Origin: Thermococcus thioreducens
GTDB taxonomy: Archaea; Methanobacteriota_B; Thermococci; Thermococcales; Thermococcaceae
Reading direction: 5' to 3'
DNA length: 64,000 bases
Assembly (NCBI RefSeq): GCF_002214545.1
Contig: NZ_CP015105.1
Location: forward strand, 558,001-622,000
The translations under genes were made by a program, and so were the position numbers. Below are positions 331 through 15,312 of the stretch, one piece after another. The notes beneath the pieces are model-generated. The model worked only from the letters and a program-made list of their open reading frames with translations. It made no database searches and had not been told where the DNA came from. Each line of letters starts with the position of its first letter. Positions within the stretch are counted from its first letter, which is position 1.

Positions 331-1785
331 TTAAGCAGTGGCCTTCTCAGGCTCGGTTTTTGACTTCTCTTCGATTATCCGTTTCATCCACGTGCCGCGC
401 AGGAACCAGGCGAGAGCAACCATCGCGGCTATAAAGTTGCTCATGCCCATGCCGAAGAACACTCCCCTGCTCGTGAAGCCGAAGAGCTCCGCGAGAGGTA
501 CGGTGATTCCAAGGATTGTTATGGCACCGATGTAGCCGAAGGCGTAGCTGAGCGGAATCCTCAGCCCCCAGAGGCGGAATATCCCGAGGGCCATGCTCTT
601 CTTGGTGTGGCCCGCCGAACTGAAGGTTCTGTTGACGACTATGAATATTCCATTGAAAAACGGCACCGAGATTAGGAAGTATTTCATAACGACCTCGCTC
701 TCCTTGATGACGGCAGGGTCGTTTAAGAACACGCGGAATATCTCGACGCGGAAGACCCCGATTATCAGTATCGCGAGGCTAGCTATTGCGAAGTTTATGA
801 GCATCGCCCTCTCGGCTATTCTTTTTGCCCTTTCGTAGTTCTCCGCTCCGACGTTCTGGGCTATCATCGTCCCCATCGCCATACTTATTCCGCGAGAGAT
901 GCTCGTGAGGAAGTTCACCAGTCTGGTAGTTATAACGTAGGCGGCGTAGGTGACATCTCCGAAACCGAATATTATCCTAGTGAGGATAACGAAGCCGAAG
1001 CTGTTCGCCGACTGGCCGATGCTCGACGGCAGGCCAACCTTGAATATCTTCTTGTAGAACTCGAAGTCTGGCTTGAGGCTCTCAAGGCTCAGGCTCAGCC
1101 CGACCCTATCGGTTAAGAGGAGGTAGAGTCCTATGAATGCTCCTACCGAGTTTGCAAAGACCGTCGCTATTGCAGCCCCTGCAACTCCCAGCTTCGGGAA
1201 GCCCAGCCAGCCGAATATCAGTATCGGGTCTAGGATTATGTTTATCGCCACGGTGAGAAGGGTTATCTTGACCGGTGTTTTCGTGTCCCCCGTTGCTCTC
1301 ACGAGCGCTCCAAAGGCCATGAAAGTGAAGGAAAATGGGATGCCGAGGAATATTATCGTCGCGTAGGTGAGCGAGTATGGGTAGACGTTCTCGCTGACCT
1401 TCATGAAGTGCAGGGCGTACGGCAGGAGGAGCGTTCCAATTATGGCAGTTGCCGTCGCGAAGAACAGCATGAGTGAGTAGAGTGCCCCGGCGGAGCGGTT
1501 TGCCCTGTCATACTTCTCAGCGCCTATATACTGGCCTACGAAGGCAAAGCCCGCTGTGGTAAACCCGAGTCCAAGGGCCATTAATGTGCCGATTATTGGC
1601 CACGTGACTCCCGGGGCCGAGAGCGCCTCCCTCCCGAGTTTGCCGAGCCAGAAGGTATCGGTTATGTTGTAGACAACTTGGACTAGGTTGTTTACAATGA
1701 GCGGGCCCGCCAGAACGAGAAGTGTCTTTTCTATGGGCCCGGTTAGTATCTCTTCGCGCATCCTCCCGATTTTCTCGCTCTTCAT
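331..1785 (-). CDS. MATE family multidrug/cation efflux transporter (copy 1)
   Basis: A 484-residue polytopic membrane protein with the two six-helix halves of the MATE family; both halves start with the usual pattern ([22 protein letters not shown] early, [21 protein letters not shown] in the middle). MATE proteins expel drugs or metabolites in exchange for Na+ or H+; the substrate here is unknown. I chose the ATG at 1785 because it aligns with the start of the next gene; a TTG two codons upstream is also open. The 39 bp gap before it holds CCTTTTATATCACC, a good TATA box, so it can be transcribed separately from its upstream paralogue. Confidence 0.9.
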
Positions 1786-1824
1786 GTGCAATCAGACCGC
1801 AATCGAAACGGTGATATAAAAGGT

Positions 1825-3225
1825 TTATGATGCGCTCGCGGGTTCCTCGATTATCCTTTCCATCCAGCTCCCGGTCAGGAACCAGGCGAGAGCAACAACC
1901 GCGCCGAGAACGTTGCTCAGACCCATCCCGAGCCACATTCCGGAGGTGTCCCTCACGAGGATTCCGAGGCCGTAGCTGAGGGGCAACCTTAGCCCCCAGA
2001 GGCGGAGTATGCTGAGGAGCATGCTCTTCTTGGTGTGCCCTGAACTCTGGAAGACGTTGTTTACCGCCGAGAATATCCCGAAGAAAGGCAGCGATGCGGA
2101 GAAATACTTAACTACCTTAGCGCTCTCGGCTATTATCGCCGGGTCGTTGATGAAAAAGCTGAATATCTCCACACGGAAGAAGGCGAAGAGGAGCGTTCCG
2201 ACGCTCAGGATGGCAAAGTTTATTGCCATCGTCTTCTCGGCTATGGTCTTGGCCCTCTCGTAGAGCTTTGCCCCAACGGTCTGACCCACCATTGTCCCCA
2301 TCGCCATGCTTATGCCGTCAGAGAAGGCGAACATGAAGTTGGTCAGCCTGTTGGTTATGGAGTAGGTCGCGAAGGCCACATCGGCCTCGCCGAACTGACC
2401 ACCGAGGGTGAAGATTATCCTCGTGAGTATGACGAAGCCGAGGGCTGTGGTTGACGAACCAACGCTTGAGGGTATACCAACGCGGAAAATGCGCTTGTAG
2501 AATGGCCAGTCTGGCTTCAGGCCTTCCACCGTAAGGTGTATCCCAACCTTCCCCCTGAAGAGGAGGTATCCACCGAAGAGCGAGCCGAGGCTGTTGGAGA
2601 ACATCGTTGCTACTGCTGCACCTATGACCCCAAGCTCTGGAAACGGCCCCCAGCCGAATATCAGGAAGGGGTCCAGGGCCAGATTGAGGAGCACGGTGGC
2701 TATGTTTATCTTAACCGGTGTTTTTGTGTCTCCTATCGCCCTCAGGAGGAAGTTGAAGGCGAAGAGCGTGAAGGCGAAGGGTATTCCGGCGAAGATGACG
2801 CGGGTGTAGTTGAGTGCGTAGGGATAGACGGTGTCACTAACGTTCATGAACTTGAGGAGGTATGGGGCCGAGAGGACACCAAATACGCCAACTCCAATAG
2901 CGAAGAGCATCATGAGGGAGTAGAGCGCTCCCGCGGCCCTGTTCGCTTTTTCATACTCCCTCGCCCCGACGTACTGGCTGACGAAGGCGAAGCCTGCTGT
3001 AGCGAACCCCATTCCGATGGCCATGAAGAACCACACCAGCGGCCACGCCGTCCCTGGTGCCGCCAGCTCCTCCCTTCCGAGCTTCCCGAGCCAGTACGTG
3101 TCGGTGAGGTTGTAGAGAACCTGAACGAGCTGGTTTATGATTAGGGGATAGGCTAGCACGATGAGCGTCTTCACTATCGGGCCGCCCACGATCTGGTCGC
3201 GCATTGCCTCTACTTCACGTCTCAT
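1825..3225 (-). CDS. MATE family multidrug/cation efflux transporter (copy 2)
   Basis: A 466-residue MATE exporter closely similar along its length to the gene just downstream (shared [51 protein letters not shown] and the C-terminal SGHTKKSM...RLWGLR.PLSYG segments). The two genes are therefore a tandem duplication that has diverged. The promoter GGCTTTTATACACACG lies about 25 bp before the ATG and there is no ribosome-binding site, so the transcript is probably leaderless. The substrate cannot be read from the sequence. Confidence 0.9.
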   Translation of the reverse strand: MRREVEAMRDQIVGGPIVKTLIVLAYPLIINQLVQVLYNLTDTYWLGKLGREELAAPGTAWPLVWFFMAIGMGFATAGFAFVSQYVGAREYEKANRAAGALYSLMMLFAIGVGVFGVLSAPYLLKFMNVSDTVYPYALNYTRVIFAGIPFAFTLFAFNFLLRAIGDTKTPVKINIATVLLNLALDPFLIFGWGPFPELGVIGAAVATMFSNSLGSLFGGYLLFRGKVGIHLTVEGLKPDWPFYKRIFRVGIPSSVGSSTTALGFVILTRIIFTLGGQFGEADVAFATYSITNRLTNFMFAFSDGISMAMGTMVGQTVGAKLYERAKTIAEKTMAINFAILSVGTLLFAFFRVEIFSFFINDPAIIAESAKVVKYFSASLPFFGIFSAVNNVFQSSGHTKKSMLLSILRLWGLRLPLSYGLGILVRDTSGMWLGMGLSNVLGAVVALAWFLTGSWMERIIEEPASAS

Positions 3226-3363: not shown

Positions 3364-5718
3364 TCACTCGAAGAGCCTCTTGCGAGCCGCCTCAAGGATG
3401 AGCTTCTGCTCCTCCTGGGCGACGGTCTTCCTGATGAGCTCCACCGCGTCGGGGTTGGCGCTGATGCTGTCGATGCCGAGCCTGACGAGGATCTTGGCCA
3501 TCTTGGGGTCGCTTCCTGCCTGTCCGCAGATGCTGGTCTCGACGCCGTACTTCTTGGCGACCTTGATGACGTTCTCGATGAGCTTGAGCACCGCCGGGTG
3601 CTTCTCGTCGTAGAGGTATGCTATCCTGTCGTTGTCCCTGTCGATGGCGAGGGTGTACTGGGTGAGGTCGTTGGTTCCGAAGCTGACGAAGTCGAGGCCT
3701 TCCTTGATGAGATCCTCGATGATGAGAGCCGCTGCCGGAACCTCGACCATTATTCCCCACTCGACGTCCTTGTGCGGCTCAAGGCCGACTGAGCGGGCGA
3801 TCTCCTTGGCCTTCCTGATCTGCTCGGGGTTGGCGACGAGCGGGAGCATGACGCCGATGTTGTCGTAGCCCTCCTCGACGACCTTCTTGATGGCCTTGAA
3901 CTCCGCCTTGAGGAGCTCAACCTGGTCAAGGCTCCTCCTGATTCCGCGCCAGCCGAGCATCGGGTTCCTCTCGTCCGGTTCGTCCTCTCCGCCGGGCATC
4001 TCCTTGAACTCGTTGGTCGGAGCATCAAGCGTCCTGTACCAGACGGGCCTCGGGTAGAAGGCAGCGGCAACGGTTCTGATGCCGTCGGCGAGCTTCTCGA
4101 CGAGCTCCTCCTCCTTGCCCTCCTTGATGAACTTGACCGGGTGCTTGCCTATGGTGAGGATCATGTGCTCGGCGCGGAGGAGACCGACACCGTCGGCGCC
4201 GGTGGCGGCTGCCCTCTCGGCGACCTCCGGCATGGAGACATTGACCTTGACCTTGGTGGCGGTGACGAGCGGAGCACCGGCAACGACGACCTGTCCGCCG
4301 GCGGCTTTCTCTTCCTCCTTCTTCTCGACGAGGCTCTTGACTATGCCCTTGTAGACGACACCCCTGGTTCCGTCAACGGTGACGTAGTCGCCGGTCTTGA
4401 GCTTCTTGGTGGCCTCCTTGGTACCGACGACTGCCGGGATGCCGAGCTCACGGCTGACGATGGCGGCGTGGCTGGTTCTTCCGCCCTCGTCGGTGACGAT
4501 AGCGGAAGCCCTCTTCATGGCCGGAACCATGTCCGGGTTGGTCATGGTGGTGACGAGAACGTCGCCCTCCTTGACCTTGTCGATCTCGTCGGCCTCGAAG
4601 ATGACGACGACCCTTCCGGCACCTATGCCCGGTGAGGCACCGAGACCCTTGAGGATGACCTCGGCCTCCTCAACCTCGGCGGCCTCCTGGGCAGTCTCGG
4701 TCTCCTTGAGGGTGGTGATCGGCCTGCTCTGGACGATGTAGAGCTTGCCGTCGTCGGCGTCGTAGGCCCACTCGATGTCCTGCGGCCAGCCGTAGTGCTC
4801 CTCGATCTTGGCGCCTATCTTGGCGACCTCGATGATCTGCTCCTCGGTGAGAACCTGCTTCTCAACCCACTCCGGACCGAGGTAGTCGGCGACCTTGACG
4901 TAGATGGTTCCCTTGCCGGTCTCCGGATTGCGGACGACCATGACCTCCTTCTTGGCGATGTACTTCTCCTTGATCCTCCAGGTGCCCTTCTCAACTATGT
5001 ACTCGTCAGGAGAAACACTGCCGCTGACGACGGCCTCACCGAGGCCCCAGCTGGCGTTGATCATGATCTCGTTCCTGTTGTTGGTGACCGGGTTGGCGGT
5101 GAACATAACACCGCTGGTCTTGCTGTTGACCATCTTCTGGACGACCGCTGAGAGGTAGACCTTGCTGTGGTCGAAGCCCTGCTTGGCCCTGTAGAAGGTG
5201 GCCCTGGCGGTCCAGAGGCTGGCCCAGCACTTCTTGACCTTGTCTATGACGTCGTCAACGCCGTAGACGTCGAGGTAGGTCTCCTGCTGGCCGGCGAAGC
5301 TGGCCTCCGGGAGGTCCTCAGCGGTGGCCGAGCTCCTGACGGCGACATAAACGGCGTCCTTGTTGAACCTCTGGGAGAGCTCCTTGTAGGCCCTCTCAAT
5401 CTCTCCGGCTATCTCTGCCGGCATCGGGAGCTCGATTATCTTCTGCCTGATCTTGGCGGTGTTCTCCTGGAGCTGCTTGGAGTCATCGACGTTGGTCTCG
5501 GCGATGACACCCATAATCCACTCCTGGAGGGTCTTTCCGTCCTCAAGCTTGACGTTCTCGACGAAGTACTTGTATGCCTCGGCGGTAACACAGAAGCCGG
5601 GCGGAACCGGAATGCCGGCGTTGGTCATTTCTCCAAGGTTGGCACCCTTTCCGCCAACAAGAGCGACGTCGCCCTTTCCGAGTTCCTCAAACCACTTTAT
5701 AAACTTGTATTCGCTCAT
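3364..5718 (-). CDS. ppsA: Phosphoenolpyruvate synthase (pyruvate, water dikinase)
   Basis: A 784-residue enzyme converting pyruvate and ATP to PEP, AMP and Pi; in Thermococcales it links pyruvate to gluconeogenesis and may also run toward pyruvate. The domains are in the usual order: ATP-grasp nucleotide-binding domain (1-340, with GGKGANLGEM near the start), phosphohistidine domain with His417 in EGGRTSHAAIVSRELGIPA, and PEP/pyruvate TIM barrel (about 480-784) with Cys731 in TSICGQAGSDP. Start ATG 5718 follows GGAGGG at good spacing. Codon use is strongly biased to G/C-ending codons, as expected of a highly expressed gene. It stands alone, 133 bp from its upstream neighbour. Confidence 0.97.
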   Translation of the reverse strand: MSEYKFIKWFEELGKGDVALVGGKGANLGEMTNAGIPVPPGFCVTAEAYKYFVENVKLEDGKTLQEWIMGVIAETNVDDSKQLQENTAKIRQKIIELPMPAEIAGEIERAYKELSQRFNKDAVYVAVRSSATAEDLPEASFAGQQETYLDVYGVDDVIDKVKKCWASLWTARATFYRAKQGFDHSKVYLSAVVQKMVNSKTSGVMFTANPVTNNRNEIMINASWGLGEAVVSGSVSPDEYIVEKGTWRIKEKYIAKKEVMVVRNPETGKGTIYVKVADYLGPEWVEKQVLTEEQIIEVAKIGAKIEEHYGWPQDIEWAYDADDGKLYIVQSRPITTLKETETAQEAAEVEEAEVILKGLGASPGIGAGRVVVIFEADEIDKVKEGDVLVTTMTNPDMVPAMKRASAIVTDEGGRTSHAAIVSRELGIPAVVGTKEATKKLKTGDYVTVDGTRGVVYKGIVKSLVEKKEEEKAAGGQVVVAGAPLVTATKVKVNVSMPEVAERAAATGADGVGLLRAEHMILTIGKHPVKFIKEGKEEELVEKLADGIRTVAAAFYPRPVWYRTLDAPTNEFKEMPGGEDEPDERNPMLGWRGIRRSLDQVELLKAEFKAIKKVVEEGYDNIGVMLPLVANPEQIRKAKEIARSVGLEPHKDVEWGIMVEVPAAALIIEDLIKEGLDFVSFGTNDLTQYTLAIDRDNDRIAYLYDEKHPAVLKLIENVIKVAKKYGVETSICGQAGSDPKMAKILVRLGIDSISANPDAVELIRKTVAQEEQKLILEAARKRLFE

Positions 5719-5851: not shown

Positions 5852-7273
5852 TTAACTATCCCTGCTTTTGGAGATTGAGGTGGAGCGTATGAAAACCTTA
5901 AAGCCCTCTTCGGGGAACTCCCTGGCGATGGTGTACATACCGCTTTCTTCGATGTTTAGTGGAGGGTCGCTCTCCATTTTGATTATAAGGCCGTACTTTC
6001 CGCTGGCGATTCTGTTACGAACCTGTTGTCTGTCTATTATGACCTGGATTATTGCATCCGGATAGTACAGTCCTGCCATCGTGTACATCTTGGGCGAAAC
6101 AAGGAGCCATTCCACGGAAGGGTAGTTGGCTGAGGCGTATTCCATCACCTTAACATAGACAGCCCCCTGTTCGTCCCACTGCCCTTTGAGGTATAGGGCG
6201 TCTCTTCCAATTGGAATCAGGAACAGTATCAGGAGCATGATAGACGCATACTTTCTGTGCTCGGCACTCGTTATAAGTTCGTGGAGAATCTCCGCCAGGC
6301 TCCACAGGCCGTGAGCGGCTAGGAGGGCAATCACGGGAGAGAGGAACGTTATGAAGCGCTCTTCTTTATGGGTTACGGTCATTATCCCCAGCAGTCCAAG
6401 AAAGAGCCAGCTTATGAGAAGCCATCCCTCGTCGTTCTTTTTGAGGAATACAAAGCCGGCTATTGCTAAGAACAGGAGGATACCCAGGGTGTTGGCTATC
6501 ATTCCCACGTAGTCGAATGCTGAAACCGGTGGTGCGTTGGTTACATACTGGGTGGCCACGCTGAAGGGCTTAAACGCACCGCCGTAATAGAGATGGCCCA
6601 TGTACATCCAGGGCAGGAGGACAAGGATGAAGAGGAGGAACCCGAGGGGATACTCCTTTTTCCTTGCCCAATCCCAGTGTTCGGTCAGATACAGGTATGC
6701 TATTATGACTCCCAGTATCGAGAGTCCTGTGTATCTGGTCAGCACCGCTATTCCCGCGATTATGAACGAGAGGTACAGCCTTGTGGCTTCACCCCTTTTT
6801 CTCCCGGTGTACAGTAGGTATATGGCGAGGGTGTAGAAAAACGTGAACTCGCTGTGGACAAGCTCGCGGGTTCCCATCGCAAAAGCCGGGGGATTGAAGA
6901 CGTAGAACATAGCCGCCGCAAACGCTTTCAGCCGGTCTCTCCACAGCTCCATAGCGAAGGTATATACAAGGCCGGCCGTAAGGGCGTAAAAAAACGCTGA
7001 GACGAGTCGAGCTGCCGCTAGGTGGGAGTGGGGTGGAACTAACCTGAAGAGAAGCGAGAGAGTGTAGACATAGACTGGTGGACGGTACATCATGTAGACC
7101 CCTTGGTAAGTGTAGTTCGTTATGCCCTTGAGGAGATTCCTTGCGATATTTATGTAGAGTGCTCCGTCGTAGGTGATGGTTCTATCGGGGAGGAAGGCTA
7201 TGGCTAGAGTCAGGGAAAAAAGAGCTATTGTCCCACTTATGTATACCTCCCTCCTTGAGAGCACTGGCGTCAC
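5852..7273 (-). CDS. GT-C family glycosyltransferase (PMT/ArnT-like), membrane
   Basis: A 473-residue protein with about ten hydrophobic segments. After the first transmembrane helix comes a loop with ITYDGALYINIARN; Asp36 sits where GT-C enzymes (PMT family 39, ArnT, STT3) keep their catalytic acid. It probably moves a sugar from a polyprenyl phosphate donor on the outer face of the membrane; the sugar and acceptor are unknown. The start is GTG 7273 after GGAGGG. The 57 bp gap to the STT3-like gene holds AAAGGTTTAAATAG, so it likely has its own promoter. Its two neighbours upstream are also surface-glycan-type membrane proteins. Confidence 0.75.
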   Translation of the reverse strand: MTPVLSRREVYISGTIALFSLTLAIAFLPDRTITYDGALYINIARNLLKGITNYTYQGVYMMYRPPVYVYTLSLLFRLVPPHSHLAAARLVSAFFYALTAGLVYTFAMELWRDRLKAFAAAMFYVFNPPAFAMGTRELVHSEFTFFYTLAIYLLYTGRKRGEATRLYLSFIIAGIAVLTRYTGLSILGVIIAYLYLTEHWDWARKKEYPLGFLLFILVLLPWMYMGHLYYGGAFKPFSVATQYVTNAPPVSAFDYVGMIANTLGILLFLAIAGFVFLKKNDEGWLLISWLFLGLLGIMTVTHKEERFITFLSPVIALLAAHGLWSLAEILHELITSAEHRKYASIMLLILFLIPIGRDALYLKGQWDEQGAVYVKVMEYASANYPSVEWLLVSPKMYTMAGLYYPDAIIQVIIDRQQVRNRIASGKYGLIIKMESDPPLNIEESGMYTIAREFPEEGFKVFIRSTSISKSRDS

Positions 7274-7330: not shown

Positions 7331-9790
7331 TCAGGAGAAGCTGAGCAGTGGATGGGCCTTTAGAAGTCCGTTGATCATATCGATTGCTCTATCGCTGCCG
7401 TAGGCGTAGCTGAAGTAGCGGTACATGGTGAGCACTGAATCGAGGGGGTGTACCTCCCTGTTGGGGTCGAACGTGTTCTCGATGAAGCTGAGGGTCTTCT
7501 CCTCCGCGTCCTTAAGTCCGGCGACGTGATAAATGTATGCCATCTGGGCGTAGGTAGCTCTGGAATACGCGTACTCATACTTCTCTGCCTTCAGCTTTCC
7601 GCTATCCTCCTGCTCCCCTGTCATCCATTCGGCCGCTTTTCTGACCGCTTTGAGGACGCTCTCATTGCCCGTCAGCTGATAGTACCTTGCGAGGCTTGAG
7701 GCGAGTGCTATGGTGGTGCCGAGGTTGTTGTTCCAGCTTCCATCCTCCTTCTGCTCCCTCAGTAGCTGGATGACGATGTTCTTCTCGGTTGTGGAGTTCA
7801 GGATTCCAAGCTCCTTGTAAACTGGGAGCATGAGAGCGTTTGTCACGAGGCCACCTTTATTGTCCTTCGGTGTTGTCATAAAGTAGTCCTCGCGTTCCCT
7901 GCTCTCCAGCAACTTGAGCGACCTCCCCTTTCCGTCGAAGTTGACCTCCTTCAGAGGTTCGAGGGTGTACGCGGTGTACAGGGTAAAGTCGTTGGGTGGA
8001 ACTCCCCAGGGGAACGCTCCGTTGTCCATCTGCTTGTATGAAAGCCAGCGGAGGAGCCAGTCTGTGCGGGCGTTGAAGGCATCATCTCCGGTCTTTTGGT
8101 AGAGGCGTGAGTAGAGGTCAACCATCCAGGCATTAAGATTGAAGTAGGCCTTGTACCTGGTGTCGAAGTCGGCATAATTATATCCCGTCCAGAACTTCTC
8201 CAGGAAATTGACGAGCGGTGAGTAATTTCCGGTATAGTTTAGAGGAAACGGCTGTTCCATCTTTAGGGTAGGTTCTGGAATGAAGCGGTATATGACCGAA
8301 CCGCCGTTGCAGAATTCAACCTTGAAATGGGTATCATAGGGGGCGTATTCCATAAGGCCGTAGCGGATGAGGCCGTACGAATACCGTTTCCTGTCAACGA
8401 AGATGTAGCTTACGTTGTATTTCCTCATAAGATAATACGCCCACTCGCGCTGGTTTGAGCTGAACATTACGACGTGGTCAGTGTACGCCTGGCCCGCCTC
8501 CCTCACGGTGGGAGCCTCTCCAAAGAATCCCTGATAGACTTTTTTCCATATGACAACGTCCTTTCTGTGTGTGTTGCCTATGAGGAGATATCCCATATCC
8601 CACCAAACGAGTATTGTGGCGTTTTCAGGAGTGTTCTGGACTATCCACTCGTAGGCCTCCTTATCGCTCACAGTTGGCGCCTCGACGTACTTGTAAGCTC
8701 CGTAGGCTCCCTGGGCAAGAGGGGTAACCAACAACAGCAGGATTACCAGTGAGGTTACCCAGTGCTTTCGTGAAATACTCTTTATCCACTCAGCGCCCGG
8801 ACCTTTCACGTCTTCGAAGGCTCTCTGGATAAACGGTCCGATGGCAGGAAAGACAGCGTCAATAAGGTACTCTGCGGCCATAACTGAGAGGGGTATTGTC
8901 GCGTAAGGGTCGCGGAAGCGGAAGGAAATTCCGCCGGCCAGCATAAACGCCCAGGCCCAGAGGACGAAGCCACGTCGTATGCTGTCCCTTTTGAAATAGT
9001 ATGGGCTTGCTATCGCTCCAAAGACGAGCTGGATAACGCCTATCCACTTGAAGTAGCCCAGGAAGCTCACTTCGCTTCGCTGAAGCCTGAGGAACAGCTC
9101 CCCAACGGTTGACTGGATGAAAGACACCTGCGTGTAGGCTGTGAACGCTAGAACTGCTAGGACGACAAGGTAGTGGAGGTTCTTTCTTATGAAAGGCCAC
9201 AGGTAGGAGGCGAACAGCAGAACCGCGGCCATGGCAAAGAATATCCACCCCCTGTGGGTCAGCATGTAGACCGTCATCACGATGGCCAGAAAGACCAGGT
9301 TGGAGAGCTTCCTCGATTTCATGAATCTTATCAGGAACAGCAGGCTTACCGAGAACAGGAACAGACCGAGGTTTTCAGGGATGTAGAGGCTAGTCCTGTA
9401 TATGGAGTTGGGGGCAAAGGCAAGAAATGCCGTCGCAAGAAGGGCGCGGTTTTTGTCCCCCGTGAGCTCCTTAAACGCCAGGTAGAAGCCAAGCACTGCG
9501 AGGGTGCCGTAGACTGCCGGAAGGACGAAGAAGAGGTAATCGGACGGGAATATCTTGTAAAACGCCGCGCCGATTATATGGAACAGAGGCGGATAGCTGT
9601 AGGCCCTCAGTCCGATCAGGGAAGGTATATCCTTTGGGATCGAGCCTATGCCTTGGCTGACTATCCTCAGGGTTATGTCTCGGTGAAGGTACTCGTCGTA
9701 TGTCGCTAAGAGAAGCGTTCTGTGGGGAATGAGTCTGATGATGAAAGCAGAAATGAGAAGCAGGGGGAGGTAGAGGCTTTCTCTCTTCAT
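7331..9790 (-). CDS. STT3/AglB-like membrane glycosyltransferase with C-terminal toroid-like domain
   Basis: An 819-residue protein. Residues 1-370 are a GT-C membrane domain with YDEYLHRD after helix 1 (Asp32 at the position of the oligosaccharyltransferase DxD-type loop). A soluble region follows with VWWDMGYLLIG; residues 396-400 (WWDMG) match the WWDYG sequon-binding signature of STT3/AglB except Tyr to Met. From about 545 to the end the sequence changes to repeated helical hairpins (YKQMDNGAFPWG, LREQKEDGSWNNN, EWMTGEQEDSGKL) like the alpha/alpha toroid of terpene cyclases and glycoside hydrolases. This domain is not normal for AglB, so it is more likely a paralogue than the housekeeping enzyme. 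Start ATG 9790 follows GAGGGGTG. Confidence 0.75.
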   Translation of the reverse strand: MKRESLYLPLLLISAFIIRLIPHRTLLLATYDEYLHRDITLRIVSQGIGSIPKDIPSLIGLRAYSYPPLFHIIGAAFYKIFPSDYLFFVLPAVYGTLAVLGFYLAFKELTGDKNRALLATAFLAFAPNSIYRTSLYIPENLGLFLFSVSLLFLIRFMKSRKLSNLVFLAIVMTVYMLTHRGWIFFAMAAVLLFASYLWPFIRKNLHYLVVLAVLAFTAYTQVSFIQSTVGELFLRLQRSEVSFLGYFKWIGVIQLVFGAIASPYYFKRDSIRRGFVLWAWAFMLAGGISFRFRDPYATIPLSVMAAEYLIDAVFPAIGPFIQRAFEDVKGPGAEWIKSISRKHWVTSLVILLLLVTPLAQGAYGAYKYVEAPTVSDKEAYEWIVQNTPENATILVWWDMGYLLIGNTHRKDVVIWKKVYQGFFGEAPTVREAGQAYTDHVVMFSSNQREWAYYLMRKYNVSYIFVDRKRYSYGLIRYGLMEYAPYDTHFKVEFCNGGSVIYRFIPEPTLKMEQPFPLNYTGNYSPLVNFLEKFWTGYNYADFDTRYKAYFNLNAWMVDLYSRLYQKTGDDAFNARTDWLLRWLSYKQMDNGAFPWGVPPNDFTLYTAYTLEPLKEVNFDGKGRSLKLLESREREDYFMTTPKDNKGGLVTNALMLPVYKELGILNSTTEKNIVIQLLREQKEDGSWNNNLGTTIALASSLARYYQLTGNESVLKAVRKAAEWMTGEQEDSGKLKAEKYEYAYSRATYAQMAYIYHVAGLKDAEEKTLSFIENTFDPNREVHPLDSVLTMYRYFSYAYGSDRAIDMINGLLKAHPLLSFS

Positions 9791-9845
9791 TGCACGACAC
9801 CCCTCAAATTTTTAAGCTCCTTTTTTAACATTAATTGGTGGTAAA

Positions 9846-10895
9846 GTGAGGGGGTTAAAAATCTTTAGCCTCGGCTTCTTTTCTTATCTTACCCTTTCAC
9901 TGTACGCCAACTATTTTGACGAAGGCTTACGCAACACAATATATTCACGAGGACTGGAGCCCTCAGTGCTCCTTCTGGGAACTGTCTATGCCCTGGCGTT
10001 CTTTGCGGTTTTCTCTTTGGGCTATGTCCTCAACCTGAGACTCCCATCCTCACTGCTGGCTGTTCTATTTCTGCTACTCTCTTTCCAGAATTTTCCCGTT
10101 TTTTCCCTCCTGGCTGTTTTGGTTCTTATAGTGTACCGGCTGGGAATCAATCCTTTCAGGCTGTTCCCCCAAAGCGCTCTCCTAGTGGCACTTTTGATAC
10201 CCTCTGCTCTATACATCGTCGTGGGTGTGCCACTTCTTGAGAATTCCCTCAGGTATGAACTCGTGGGTTCTCTAGTTCTAGCGGCGGTTCTGGCGGTTGT
10301 TGGAATGGCTTATTCCACGCTTTCTCTTCGCTGGAAAACTTTCCTAGTGGGGGTGTATACCGTGCTGTTCTTCCTCGGCACATTCCGCTCCCTGGTTCTT
10401 CTGGTATATCTGGCTTATTTCCTGGGTACATACTTTGATTATCCTCAGTTTCGAAAATGGCTCCTCGGTCTCAGTCTCATTCCTGCCCTCATCATAGTGG
10501 GTATGAGCGGTGGGATTGAGGCAGTTCTAGTGAGGATAGGCTTCACGTTCCTGGTTTTCCACAACCTCGTTCGTCTTTCCCTTCCATGGGGTTTCTTCCA
10601 TGGTGCTCTCCTCTTCAGTAGCAACCCCCGGGGCATGGTCGCTTCACTGTTCGGTGCCTCCACGAACTATACCTATTTCTTCTTTGGCCAGCCGGTGGCT
10701 GATTTTGGAATTCTGGGCGTGATAGAGGCTTTTTTGCTTGGCACGTTCCTTGGAAACAGTGAGGGGAACAGAGGGAGCTTTGTGGTGGTCTTGTCTCTTA
10801 TGATATACTCGCTAGACCCCGGAGTGGATGCGTTCATAATGTTATTTATTGTGGCCACTTTGCTTTTCTCGGTTTCTGAGGGCAACATAACATGA
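9846..10895 (+). CDS. Polytopic membrane protein, polysaccharide polymerase-like
   Basis: A 349-residue, very hydrophobic protein with about ten predicted helices and few charged loops, divergent from the STT3-like gene (55 bp shared promoter region). The late segment HGALLFSSNPRGMVASLFGA followed by TNYTYFFFGQPVADFGILG resembles the large loop and terminal helices of O-antigen polymerase (Wzy-like) proteins. With the two GT-C genes beside it, a role in building a surface glycan or N-glycan precursor is plausible but inferred. Start GTG 9846 follows GGTGG; no better ATG exists upstream. Confidence 0.55.
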   Translation: MRGLKIFSLGFFSYLTLSLYANYFDEGLRNTIYSRGLEPSVLLLGTVYALAFFAVFSLGYVLNLRLPSSLLAVLFLLLSFQNFPVFSLLAVLVLIVYRLGINPFRLFPQSALLVALLIPSALYIVVGVPLLENSLRYELVGSLVLAAVLAVVGMAYSTLSLRWKTFLVGVYTVLFFLGTFRSLVLLVYLAYFLGTYFDYPQFRKWLLGLSLIPALIIVGMSGGIEAVLVRIGFTFLVFHNLVRLSLPWGFFHGALLFSSNPRGMVASLFGASTNYTYFFFGQPVADFGILGVIEAFLLGTFLGNSEGNRGSFVVVLSLMIYSLDPGVDAFIMLFIVATLLFSVSEGNIT

Positions 10896-11037: not shown

Positions 11038-14000
11038 ATGAATCGGAAGGCCTTGAGTCTTTTGATTGTGGCGGTGCTCGTACTATCGGCAGCTTCAGTA
11101 GCGTTTTCAGCAACACCTGTCTTTGCCGCCCCCTCTAACCCTGCCAAAGTAGAAACCACAAACAATGCTCATCCTGAGCAGTTCATCAGCGGTGAGATTC
11201 TCCAAAAGGAAATACAGAATATCCTGAAGACCAGTGACAAAACCGTACGACTGATAGTCGCACCGGATAGAGACCACAAGATGGAGGTATATAATGCCCT
11301 TAAAAAGCTTGGAAAGATCGATCCAATAAGCAAACCCGAGTATCAGTTCATAGTCGTGGAGATGCCCGTTTCCAGGGTGGAGGAGCTCCAGAACATTCCT
11401 GGTATCCTGCATGTGTGGAAGGACAGGACTGTCAAGCTCCAGGAACCTGTGGCTCCCGAGGATGGGACTGCTCCCAGCGCTCCTGCAAGGGACTCCCTCT
11501 CCCTCCCAGAAATGTTCATGAGCGTTTTCACCATAGACGCGTACAACGTCTGGACTGACTACGGTGTCTACGGAGACAACGTTACAGTTGCCGTTCTTGA
11601 TACGGGTGTGGATGTGGGACACCCGTTCCTCCAGACGACCCTCGATGGAAGGAAGAAGATTATTGACATCTATGACGCGAGCGACGAGGGTATGGCCCAG
11701 ATATACTACAACACTACCACTCCCGTCGGAGGAACTATCACCGTCAACAAGAACGTCACTGTCTTCTGGGGAGTCTACGCTAACTATTACGGTCACCCTG
11801 CATACACCAACTACACCATGGGCACCTATTATGTCGGCAACATAACTGGCGATACATACTACATCGGCCTCCTTCCCGAGAGGTACTTCGACCTCAACAA
11901 CTTCAGCGCGACCCCCTACGACCCGTACGGCCTTGGCCTCTTTGGAGACCTCAGTGATGTTTATCCGGTTCTCATAGTCAACCAGAGCGGTAACTTCACC
12001 GCTTACATAGACTTCAACCTCGACAACAACTTCACCAACGACCAGCCGATGAGAATTTATGACATCAGCGGGGACTACGTCACCGTTAACACAACTAAGG
12101 TCAACGTTGCCTTCATAGAGTTCGAGCCCAGTGAGGGCTACGCCTACTTCATGTGGGACGCCCACGGACACGGCACCCACGTCAGCGGTACCGTTGCGGG
12201 CGTTGGTCTGCCCACTGACCCTGTGTTTTACGGCGTCTACGGCGTTGCTCCCAACGCCCAGCTCATCGAGGTTAAAGTTCTTCCGGGAGAGCTCGGCTTT
12301 GGAAGAACCAGCTGGATAATCAGCGGGATGATATACGCGACCCTTATGGGTGCCGACGTCATCAGCATGTCCCTCGGCGGTGGTGGCGAGATAAACGACG
12401 GACTTGAGACCCCGGAGATATTTTACGTCAACCTGCTCACCGACATTTACGGGGTTACGTTTGCCATTGCCGCTGGAAACGAGGGGCCGACAACCAACAG
12501 CGTTCACGCCCCCGGTGACAGCGACCTGGCCATAACGGTCGGCAACTACTGGGAGAGCGAGAGGTGGGAGCTTCTCTACGGCCTGCCGGGGGTTATGAAC
12601 GGTCCGGCCATGAGTTCCAGCAGGGGACCGAGGATGGACGGTCTCCTCGACCCGGACGTGATGGCCCCTGGAACTGCCATATTCTCAAGCCTTCCGATGT
12701 GGTACACGGTTCTCTACGGAAACCCGTACAGGTACTACGGATTCTGGAGCGGCACATCAATGGCCACCCCGCACGTCAGCGGTGCAGTTGCCCTCATGAT
12801 AAGCTATGCCAAGCAGCACAACATCACCTACAACCCGATAATGATCAAGCGCGCCCTTGAGCTCAGCGCCAAGCCCACGAACCAGACCATGATAGACCAG
12901 GGCTTTGGCCTCATACAGGTCGACAAGGCCATAGCCAAACTCGAAGAGCTCAGCCAGGAACCGACCAATTACCTCTTCGCGGGCACGACCTTCACCAGCT
13001 TCAAGAACCCGATTGAGCAGCCAGTAATACCAACTGCGACGTTGAGCTCAATATATTCTTGGGGAGTGGGCTACTTCCAGTACATGTTCGGCTATCCGTA
13101 CCTCTACAGAGGAGTCTACATAAGGGACGAGTATCCGGGCAGCGTCCCGATATACTTCTCGCCGATGACGTACGAGCCCGGATGGGGCCTCTGGTACGTC
13201 TTCGAGAACAAGACCTACAAGATAAGCACCAACGTTGACTGGATCATGCCGAACACTACCGAGGTCACCATACACGGCGCTAATGCCATGTACATAAGCG
13301 ACCTCATCGGACAGTTCTCCATCAACATCGACTACTCCAAGCTCCAGAAGAGCGGCACCTACGTGGGTCTGATTTACATCGACGACCCGGACACCAGCTA
13401 CATCGATGGTTATGTCGCAGTGACCGTTGACATACCCGCAAACAAGAACGGCGGGACCAGCGCCAAGATCACCGACACCGGCAAACCGGGTGAGGCCAAG
13501 CACTACTTCTTCGAGGTGCCGAGGGGCACAAAGGAACTCCGCGTTACCCTCCGCGTCCCGACGGATGCCAACGGCACCCCAATGGGCAGGGTCAAGCTCG
13601 TCATCGCGAGGCCAATGGGCGGTGTTGTCTACGACGGAGTGCCCGGATACTACTACGTCGGCCCAGGAGGACCGCTTGAGTACACGTGGGTGGTAGAGAA
13701 TCCGGTTGAGGGCGTCTGGGAGATAACGGCCTACGTCAGCGTCAGCTCCTACGCCAGGACCGGCTACGAGGATGCCCACTATGAGATCGAAGTGAGCGCT
13801 GCGTCCGTTTCAATAACACCTGAGATCATCAAGAAAGACGTCCCGTCTCCGGCAAACGTCAGCGTTGGGGCCAAGGTGGAGAACAACTACGGCGACTTCA
13901 ACGCCGTTGCTGTTGGATACGGCCTTGGAAGGCTTGACCAAGCATATGCAATGGTCAGGAACGTCAGCCAGGACGACTGGGATGTCATCGGGGCTTTCTA

Positions 14001-15312
14001 TGTTGACCCAACCACATACTTCATCAGGTTTGGAATTACCGAGCCCGAAGACCCAACTGCTGACCTTGACCTGTATGTGCTGTACTTCCCAACGCTGAAT
14101 GACCTCCTCAACTTCGCGAACTATACGGTCTACTACGACCAGATAGGCCCGACCAGCGATGAGGTCTTCGAAAAGTTCATGCCCGAGACGGGATACTACC
14201 TGATAATGGTCTACGGATACGACACAAGGAGCTACAACCCGATCCACTACACCTTCTACTACCAGGTGCTCGGCGACAACGGTGATGTGGCGGTCGACAG
14301 CACCCCGTTTGCATTTGGCACGGGTACCTCAGAATCCATCGGCGCTAAAGTGGACCTTTCGGCTCCAGGCACTTACCTCGGAGTGCTCGGACTCCTCAAC
14401 GCAGACACTGGGGAGACTATGACCTACGCGCCGATGCTGTTCCAGGTAGGCATGCCCGAGATGTACGTGGTAGTGTATCCGGAAGCCACCCTCGGAAAGC
14501 AGTCAGTGCTCAAGATAAGGCTCCTCGACCTTGCGACGATGGAGAGGATAAACACTCCGGCAAAGGTCGTCGTGAACGGCAGGGAGTACTACACGGACAA
14601 CGGTGAAGTCGAGGTGTACTTCACACCCCTCCACATGGAGCAGACGTTCAACATTCAGGTCTTCAGCGACTACTACCAGGACACCTCCAAGGAGGTGACG
14701 GTTAAGGTCAAGGAGCTTGCGGAGAACAAGGTTTACTCCGCCACCCAGGTATCACCCTACGTCGCGGTTGGACTCGGTACAGTCACGGGCTACCACGACA
14801 CGGGTACGAGCATAGACCTGACGGTTGAGGGTCCGAGCGGAACGACCGGTTACGTCCTCGTAACACTGCCGGTCGATACCCAGTACGTCGACGTTAAGGG
14901 CGACCATGTGATCAGCTACTACATCCTTGACGGTAAGAACGCGAAGTACGCCGTGCTGAAGGTCAAGTACGCCTCACCGGTAACTCTGACGATTGAATAC
15001 AAGACCTCCCGCTGGATCGTCAGCACCTGGAACTACGTCTGGTACATGCTCTACTGGAGGTACGACCAGAAGTTCGACCCGCTCTACCAGAAGGCGGTTG
15101 AGCTCGGCGTCGACAATGAGACCCTCCAGGAGGCCATGCACTACAAGCAGCTCGCCGACCAGTACTATGCTGAGGCCGAGAAGTACCTGACTCCGGGCAG
15201 GGACAACCTCGCAATAGCTGCACTGCCCAACATCCGCAAGGCCTACCTGAACATCCTCAAAGCATACACCATCCTTGAGAAGGCCGTCAAGGAGATTGAA
15301 GCCCAGGGCTGA
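11038..15312 (+). CDS. Pyrolysin/stetterlysin-type secreted subtilisin protease
   Basis: A 1424-residue S8A serine endopeptidase. A signal peptide (about 1-30, ending ATPVFAA) precedes an inhibitor-like propeptide (to about 150). The catalytic triad is Asp188 (AVLDTGVDVG), His378 (HGHGTHVSG) and Ser574 (SGTSMATPH), with oxyanion Asn481 (AAGNEGPT). A long insert lies between Asp and His, as in P. furiosus pyrolysin. The C-terminal 800 residues are beta-rich with many N-glycosylation sequons and end in a charged helical segment (about 1355-1424). It should act outside or attached to the cell, digesting proteins for peptide fermentation. There is no obvious membrane anchor. It is monocistronic with its own promoter. 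Confidence 0.96.
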   Translation: MNRKALSLLIVAVLVLSAASVAFSATPVFAAPSNPAKVETTNNAHPEQFISGEILQKEIQNILKTSDKTVRLIVAPDRDHKMEVYNALKKLGKIDPISKPEYQFIVVEMPVSRVEELQNIPGILHVWKDRTVKLQEPVAPEDGTAPSAPARDSLSLPEMFMSVFTIDAYNVWTDYGVYGDNVTVAVLDTGVDVGHPFLQTTLDGRKKIIDIYDASDEGMAQIYYNTTTPVGGTITVNKNVTVFWGVYANYYGHPAYTNYTMGTYYVGNITGDTYYIGLLPERYFDLNNFSATPYDPYGLGLFGDLSDVYPVLIVNQSGNFTAYIDFNLDNNFTNDQPMRIYDISGDYVTVNTTKVNVAFIEFEPSEGYAYFMWDAHGHGTHVSGTVAGVGLPTDPVFYGVYGVAPNAQLIEVKVLPGELGFGRTSWIISGMIYATLMGADVISMSLGGGGEINDGLETPEIFYVNLLTDIYGVTFAIAAGNEGPTTNSVHAPGDSDLAITVGNYWESERWELLYGLPGVMNGPAMSSSRGPRMDGLLDPDVMAPGTAIFSSLPMWYTVLYGNPYRYYGFWSGTSMATPHVSGAVALMISYAKQHNITYNPIMIKRALELSAKPTNQTMIDQGFGLIQVDKAIAKLEELSQEPTNYLFAGTTFTSFKNPIEQPVIPTATLSSIYSWGVGYFQYMFGYPYLYRGVYIRDEYPGSVPIYFSPMTYEPGWGLWYVFENKTYKISTNVDWIMPNTTEVTIHGANAMYISDLIGQFSINIDYSKLQKSGTYVGLIYIDDPDTSYIDGYVAVTVDIPANKNGGTSAKITDTGKPGEAKHYFFEVPRGTKELRVTLRVPTDANGTPMGRVKLVIARPMGGVVYDGVPGYYYVGPGGPLEYTWVVENPVEGVWEITAYVSVSSYARTGYEDAHYEIEVSAASVSITPEIIKKDVPSPANVSVGAKVENNYGDFNAVAVGYGLGRLDQAYAMVRNVSQDDWDVIGAFYVDPTTYFIRFGITEPEDPTADLDLYVLYFPTLNDLLNFANYTVYYDQIGPTSDEVFEKFMPETGYYLIMVYGYDTRSYNPIHYTFYYQVLGDNGDVAVDSTPFAFGTGTSESIGAKVDLSAPGTYLGVLGLLNADTGETMTYAPMLFQVGMPEMYVVVYPEATLGKQSVLKIRLLDLATMERINTPAKVVVNGREYYTDNGEVEVYFTPLHMEQTFNIQVFSDYYQDTSKEVTVKVKELAENKVYSATQVSPYVAVGLGTVTGYHDTGTSIDLTVEGPSGTTGYVLVTLPVDTQYVDVKGDHVISYYILDGKNAKYAVLKVKYASPVTLTIEYKTSRWIVSTWNYVWYMLYWRYDQKFDPLYQKAVELGVDNETLQEAMHYKQLADQYYAEAEKYLTPGRDNLAIAALPNIRKAYLNILKAYTILEKAVKEIEAQG

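Follow-up and report, generated by a model that had tools for sequence, protein, structure and literature searches.

The gene TOR, which encodes an STT3/AglB-like protein with a toroid, lies on the minus strand of the window (the whole stretch of 64,000 nucleotides analysed here), and its open reading frame of 819 amino acids is present as given in a preliminary description of this DNA. The source genome is a single contig of 2.07 Mb whose relatives are Thermococcus species. On one side TOR is flanked by a gene for a PMT-family GT-C protein and by ppsA, and on the other by a divergent gene for a Wzy-like membrane protein (WZY) and by a large subtilase gene (Table 1).

Table 1. Features of the TOR locus, with positions counted from the first nucleotide of the window
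Feature	Position	Strand	Description	Evidence
TOR	7331..9790	-	819 aa, ATG start; STT3/AglB-like GT-C core, central-core-like domain and C-terminal alpha/alpha toroid	ORF list; 30-member orthologue alignment; hhalign to AglB; AF2 models
TOR GT-C transmembrane core	8687..9790	-	Residues 1-368	hhalign to AglB; Pfam PMT_2; Foldseek to STT3/AglB/ArnT
TOR EL1 motif YDEYLH	9683..9700	-	Residues 31-36; counterpart of AglB D-P-Y-Y-H	D32/H36 invariant; aligned with AglB
TOR central-core-like extracytoplasmic domain	8273..8686	-	Residues 369-506	59/138 columns invariant; dN/dS 0-0.03; AF2 low-confidence at 386-436
TOR WWDMG	8591..8605	-	Residues 396-400	WWD and Gly invariant; position 4 is M/V/L instead of Tyr
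TOR (alpha/alpha)6 toroid	7355..8185	-	Residues 536-812; 12 helices, six pairs	AF2; Foldseek; conservation test
TOR-WZY divergent intergenic region	9791..9845		AT-rich centre; two Shine-Dalgarno-like sites, CACCCC (towards TOR) and GGTGGT (towards WZY)	Aligned in 30 loci
WZY, Wzy-like PF01901 membrane protein	9846..10895	+	349 aa; constant TOR partner; counterpart of c3	Pfam O_anti_polymase E 2.2e-15; 29/29 adjacency; hhalign to c3 E 5e-42
PMT-family GT-C	5852..7273	-	473 aa; optional cassette part; relative of c4	Pfam PMT_2 2e-13; 6/30 A-type loci
ppsA	3364..5718	-	Conserved left flank of exchange site	ORF list; compared loci
Large subtilase	11038..15312	+	Usual right flank of exchange site in Thermococcus	Pfam Peptidase_S8 4e-50

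The GT-C core of TOR is related to AglB and STT3, as had been proposed. TOR aligns with 17 AglB-type proteins over residues 8-480 in hhalign (probability 99.6%, E 8e-25) and with human STT3B in phmmer (E 1.9e-6), which among PDB sequences also matches STT3A/B around WWDMG, while a profile of 30 TOR orthologues (820 columns, 54-97% identical to the window protein) matches STT3 chains with an E-value of 6e-12. The window protein itself scores below the TIGR04154 cut-off. The best PDB matches of the full TOR model in Foldseek are STT3 (8age, E 6e-8) and AglB (7e9s, 4e-6). The Asp32 in EL1 and the variant WWDMG noted earlier belong to a set of residues invariant in the 30 orthologues (Y31, D32, E33, H36, E139, E240, W396, W397, D398, G400 and R409), and the 17 AglB proteins have D46, R403, WWD, G497 and R506 invariant, with H50 (at least 90%) and E347 nearly so. 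D32 aligns to D46, the catalytic aspartate of EL1, and both the D-to-H spacing in EL1 and the Trp-to-Arg spacing of 13 are exactly those of AglB.

Other motifs of this family are eroded or displaced in TOR. EL2 is without an acidic pair (DxD/DxE/DxH) and carries a single acid, E139 (in IPEN), aligned to the second one; E240, the candidate for the EL5 TIXE glutamate, lies in the right loop and is four columns off in the profile alignment; and for the arginine contacting pyrophosphate the nearby invariant candidates are R291 and R293, where the alignment is not clean. The region of the DK/DM/MI sequon pocket reads VDRKRYSYGLI, in which neither the Lys nor the Ile/Met position is conserved as such and the motif is not intact. 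Residues 386-436, poorly modelled by AF2 in the full-length protein, are the active-site part of the core domain. TOR thus has in common with AglB/STT3 (PF02516, TIGR04154; A. fulgidus AglB 7e9s, yeast STT3 8age) the GT-C core, the EL1 Asp and His, and WWDxG in an extracytoplasmic central-core domain, but differs from them in the M/V/L replacing the Tyr of WWDYG, the single EL2 acid, the lack of an intact DK/MI motif, the (alpha/alpha)6 toroid after the core, the strict linkage to a Wzy-like gene and the patchy distribution. TOR is distinct from the housekeeping AglB, as the same genome encodes two other, canonical AglBs of 960 and 790 amino acids, and orthology of TOR with the housekeeping enzyme was not found.

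All TOR domains are under purifying selection, with dN/dS values of 0.07-0.11 in the transmembrane core, 0-0.03 in the central-core-like domain, which is the most constrained part, and 0.06-0.09 in the toroid; the combination of domains is not chance, since the ratio is low in all three parts. The in-frame stops seen in several orthologues proved to be the normal stop codons at the ends of the genes, into which the alignment ran, and recoding was rejected. At G028:C1:1189969-1192415 (locus L072) TOR lies in two overlapping frames and is therefore broken there by a frameshift or a sequencing error.

The alignment with AglB stops at residue 480, and in place of the C-terminal peripheral beta domains of AglB there is a toroid of about 277 residues, in agreement with the toroid-like helical repeats first described and with no ordinary AglB periplasmic domains predicted in their stead. 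AF2 models this region alone with a pLDDT of 90 and a pTM of 0.91, as 12 helices in six pairs, and the helices are also well modelled in the full-length protein. The earlier label 'terpene-cyclase-like' holds for the toroid fold and is over-specific beyond it, because sugar epimerases, glucuronyl hydrolase and TED domains resemble the toroid about as well: Foldseek places terpene cyclases roughly level with cellobiose 2-epimerase, unsaturated glucuronyl hydrolase and complement TED folds, with TM-scores mostly near 0.5 (class II terpene cyclases, E 2e-4, TM 0.50-0.57). The neighbours being of several kinds and mostly at a TM-score of about 0.5, the fold does not settle the chemistry. TOR shares this fold (TM ~0.5-0.57) and a QxxDGxW-like repeat with alpha/alpha-toroid enzymes such as class II terpene cyclases (e.g. 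7xkx, drimenyl diphosphate synthase), cellobiose 2-epimerase and GH88-type hydrolase, but its toroid is only 9-19% identical to theirs, has no catalytic signature found in common with them and is fused to a membrane transferase. A terpene cyclase of the DxDD type is unsupported, as only a DxD (541-543) located before the first toroid helix is invariant and the fourth position varies; the SQHop_cyclase_N match scores 18.4 bits against a cut-off of 26.2.

Conservation in the toroid is concentrated at one end, where 52 of 176 positions in the loops and the helices following them are invariant, compared with 12 of 101 in the other helices and back loops (Fisher p 6e-4), a pattern in the predicted model that is as expected of a binding or active-site face. 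Across 115 genomes of the phylum, the toroid profile matches only TOR and TOR remnants, so no such toroid was found elsewhere in them.

The functional link with a Wzy-like gene suggested for TOR is borne out, as TOR adjoins ppsA and is head-to-head with WZY in 29 of the 29 neighbourhoods fetched. WZY scores 57.3 bits against the PF01901 cut-off of 24.2, and polymerase activity of this family is a prediction only (PMC5898192). The neighbouring GT-C protein, proposed as a further pathway member, turns out to be only an occasional partner, occurring in 6 of 30 loci including that of the window. That it is a leftover of the alternative cassette described below is not supported, because the copies in the two cassette types form separate clades. 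In one genus-level group (loci L066, L067, L074 and L075) the TOR-linked Wzy-like gene is tandemly duplicated and the copies form separate clades.

Of 94 Thermococcaceae genomes, 40 encode TOR (cassette A), 39 encode c2 of an alternative cassette (cassette B, c1-c2-c3-c4), 15 have neither and none has both (Fisher p 2e-14, uncorrected for relatedness). In cassette B, c1 is a membrane-anchored secreted protein that is weakly TrmB-like (sugar-binding-like), c2 and c3 are PF01901 proteins and c4 is a PMT-type GT-C, and in some loci c3 or c4 is absent or has no separate ORF call. Cassette B adjoins ppsA in 19 of the 20 loci fetched, the exception being L088, where it lies away from ppsA and can therefore also occupy another site. 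In all 8 resolved genomes with neither cassette the site is empty and ppsA stands directly beside the subtilase gene. The TOR-linked Wzy-like protein is the counterpart of c3 (hhalign E 5e-42) and not of c2 (E 2e-11), and TOR therefore replaces c1 and c2; the other main allele has two PF01901 proteins and a secreted TrmB-like sugar-binding protein, and TOR seems to take the place of the latter together with the second of the PF01901 proteins. Relatives of TOR were found neither in plasmids nor in viral contigs, and a pattern scan of genome contigs beyond the phylum returned only Thermococcaceae/Thermococci records.

Cassettes A and B are exchangeable alleles at a ppsA-linked site. In two genomes, G098 and G102 (loci L081 and L082), cassette B is flanked on one side by 36 codons of the 3' end of TOR, with 97% and 94% protein identity to the TOR of a sister genome, and on the other by 157 codons from the 3' end of the TOR-type Wzy gene (95%), while the DNA of the left flank in L081 is 97.5% identical to that of the TOR-bearing genome G095. 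These remnants on both sides of cassette B in near-identical DNA are direct evidence of replacement between the cassettes, and close relatives with flanks about 97% identical carry different cassettes. Mapped on the ppsA tree, the three states require 20 changes, and well-supported branches impose at least 9 changes of the TOR state; the count is approximate, since ppsA is a neighbour of the site of exchange and may take part in its recombination. As TOR is swapped at this site, among neighbouring strains, for another set of sugar-polymer genes, TOR probably builds an exchangeable surface coat.

Bringing together the demonstrated homology to AglB, predicted toroid fold, constant pairing and allelic replacement, we put at about one half the probability that TOR is a glycan ligase of the STT3 type that transfers en bloc, has a toroid for recognising or processing the glycan and is paired with a Wzy-like polymerase on an exchangeable surface polysaccharide. 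Thermococcaceae would then have in TOR a third GT-C transferase of the STT3 type, a specialised one, and the TOR-WZY pair would be one allele of a surface-glycan cassette beside ppsA. The Wzy-like protein would extend a lipid-linked glycan outside the membrane, the toroid would bind and possibly trim or modify the polysaccharide, and TOR would move the assembled chain en bloc from its lipid carrier to a surface acceptor. Retention of WWD would make a protein the most likely acceptor; the erosion of EL2 and of the DK motif, as read from the sequence, speaks against ordinary sequon use. The product may be a surface glycan that is diversified by exchange, much as at O-antigen loci. A fuller version, less likely than not, is a Wzy-dependent, STT3-catalysed surface-glycan system in which the built-in toroid reads or edits the Wzy-made polymer before en-bloc transfer, the whole being a serotype-like allele exchanged among hyperthermophilic archaea by homologous replacement.

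TOR could otherwise be a PMT/ArnT-like GT-C monosaccharide transferase, adding sugars from dolichyl phosphate to a membrane lipid or to the polymer that the Wzy-like protein makes, with the WWD domain as an inherited structure devoid of OST function. This rather unlikely alternative draws on PMT_2 (residues 67-217), and not STT3, being the sole Pfam family to pass its cut-off in the window protein, as well as on the eroded EL2, EL5 and DK motifs, the c4-type PMT enzymes of cassette B and the presence of ArnT among the Foldseek matches. Against it, however, the WWD, the Arg 13 residues past its first Trp and the EL1 D/H are all invariant, STT3 surpasses ArnT by more than 3 orders of magnitude in Foldseek E-value with the full model, two TOR orthologues pass the STT3 cut-off (PF02516), and TOR co-occurs with a PMT-type GT-C in six loci.

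It is improbable that the toroid is the main enzyme, a glycan-modifying epimerase, lyase or glycosidase held in place by an STT3-like membrane part, that edits the Wzy polymer through chain-length control or sugar modification. Residues ~650-780 of TOR have sub-threshold Pfam matches to C5-epimerase, GH127, pectate lyase and squalene-hopene cyclase, weak matches to C5-epimerase, GH127, pectate lyase and GH88 toroids recur across the family, cellobiose 2-epimerase and unsaturated glucuronyl hydrolase are structural matches, and the invariant acids D541, D543, E611, D643 and E779 lie on the conserved face or in adjoining helices. However, no catalytic signature of any epimerase, lyase or glycosidase toroid family was matched in the TOR toroid, and constraint on the central-core domain exceeds even that on the toroid, so that the transferase part must do more than serve as an anchor. 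It is highly improbable that TOR is, as in Archaeoglobus, simply an extra AglB paralogue for ordinary N-glycosylation whose C-terminal domain has diverged. Its core and WWD are AglB-like and archaeal genomes can hold several AglB paralogues (three in A. fulgidus; PMC3703281), but the genome already has two canonical AglBs, and TOR has a patchy distribution, is accompanied by a Wzy-like gene in every neighbourhood fetched and gives way to a cassette that itself contains Wzy-like genes.

The en-bloc ligase reading has a bacterial parallel. In the Wzy scheme of bacteria, polymerisation on a lipid carrier is followed by en-bloc ligation to a surface acceptor by WaaL or PglL, and the loci are exchangeable and serotype-like. 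The proposed TOR-WZY pair would work alike, and its locus is likewise exchangeable and serotype-like, but the TOR ligase is of the STT3 type and not of the O-antigen-ligase type, and the cassette is without a flippase or an initiating transferase. With a protein of the STT3 family linked to a Wzy-like gene, the TOR locus brings together polymerise-and-ligate and N-glycan transfer, which usually operate as separate systems. Neither a toroid-tailed STT3 protein nor a Wzy-linked TOR cassette was found in the open-licence papers searched, and the TOR architecture and TOR-WZY module appear to be undescribed, while the general kind is known.

The separate, undescribed pathway first suggested stands in part: the architecture and module appear new, but the type of pathway is partly described, as the alternative cassette at the same site corresponds to a euryarchaeal operon of arCOG03206 (PF01901), arCOG03414 and arCOG00563-00566 (PMT), predicted in 2015 for a lipopolysaccharide or glycosylation pathway by Makarova, Galperin and Koonin (PMC5898192, available portion, in which no mention of TOR was found). 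The TOR allele has in common with this operon the site (19/20 B loci), a c3-type Wzy-like protein and sometimes a PMT-type GT-C, but carries the STT3-toroid protein in place of arCOG03206 (c2) and arCOG03414 (c1). A locus with two alleles, plus an empty state, and a replacement footprint makes serotype-like exchange in archaea directly testable.

Around the exchange site, a tandem pair of MATE-like transporters, about 58% identical, occupies positions 331-3225 of the window and lies beside ppsA in most relatives. The subtilase is very variable among relatives (27-98% identity, about 1100 to 1925 amino acids), with its last ~100 residues conserved.
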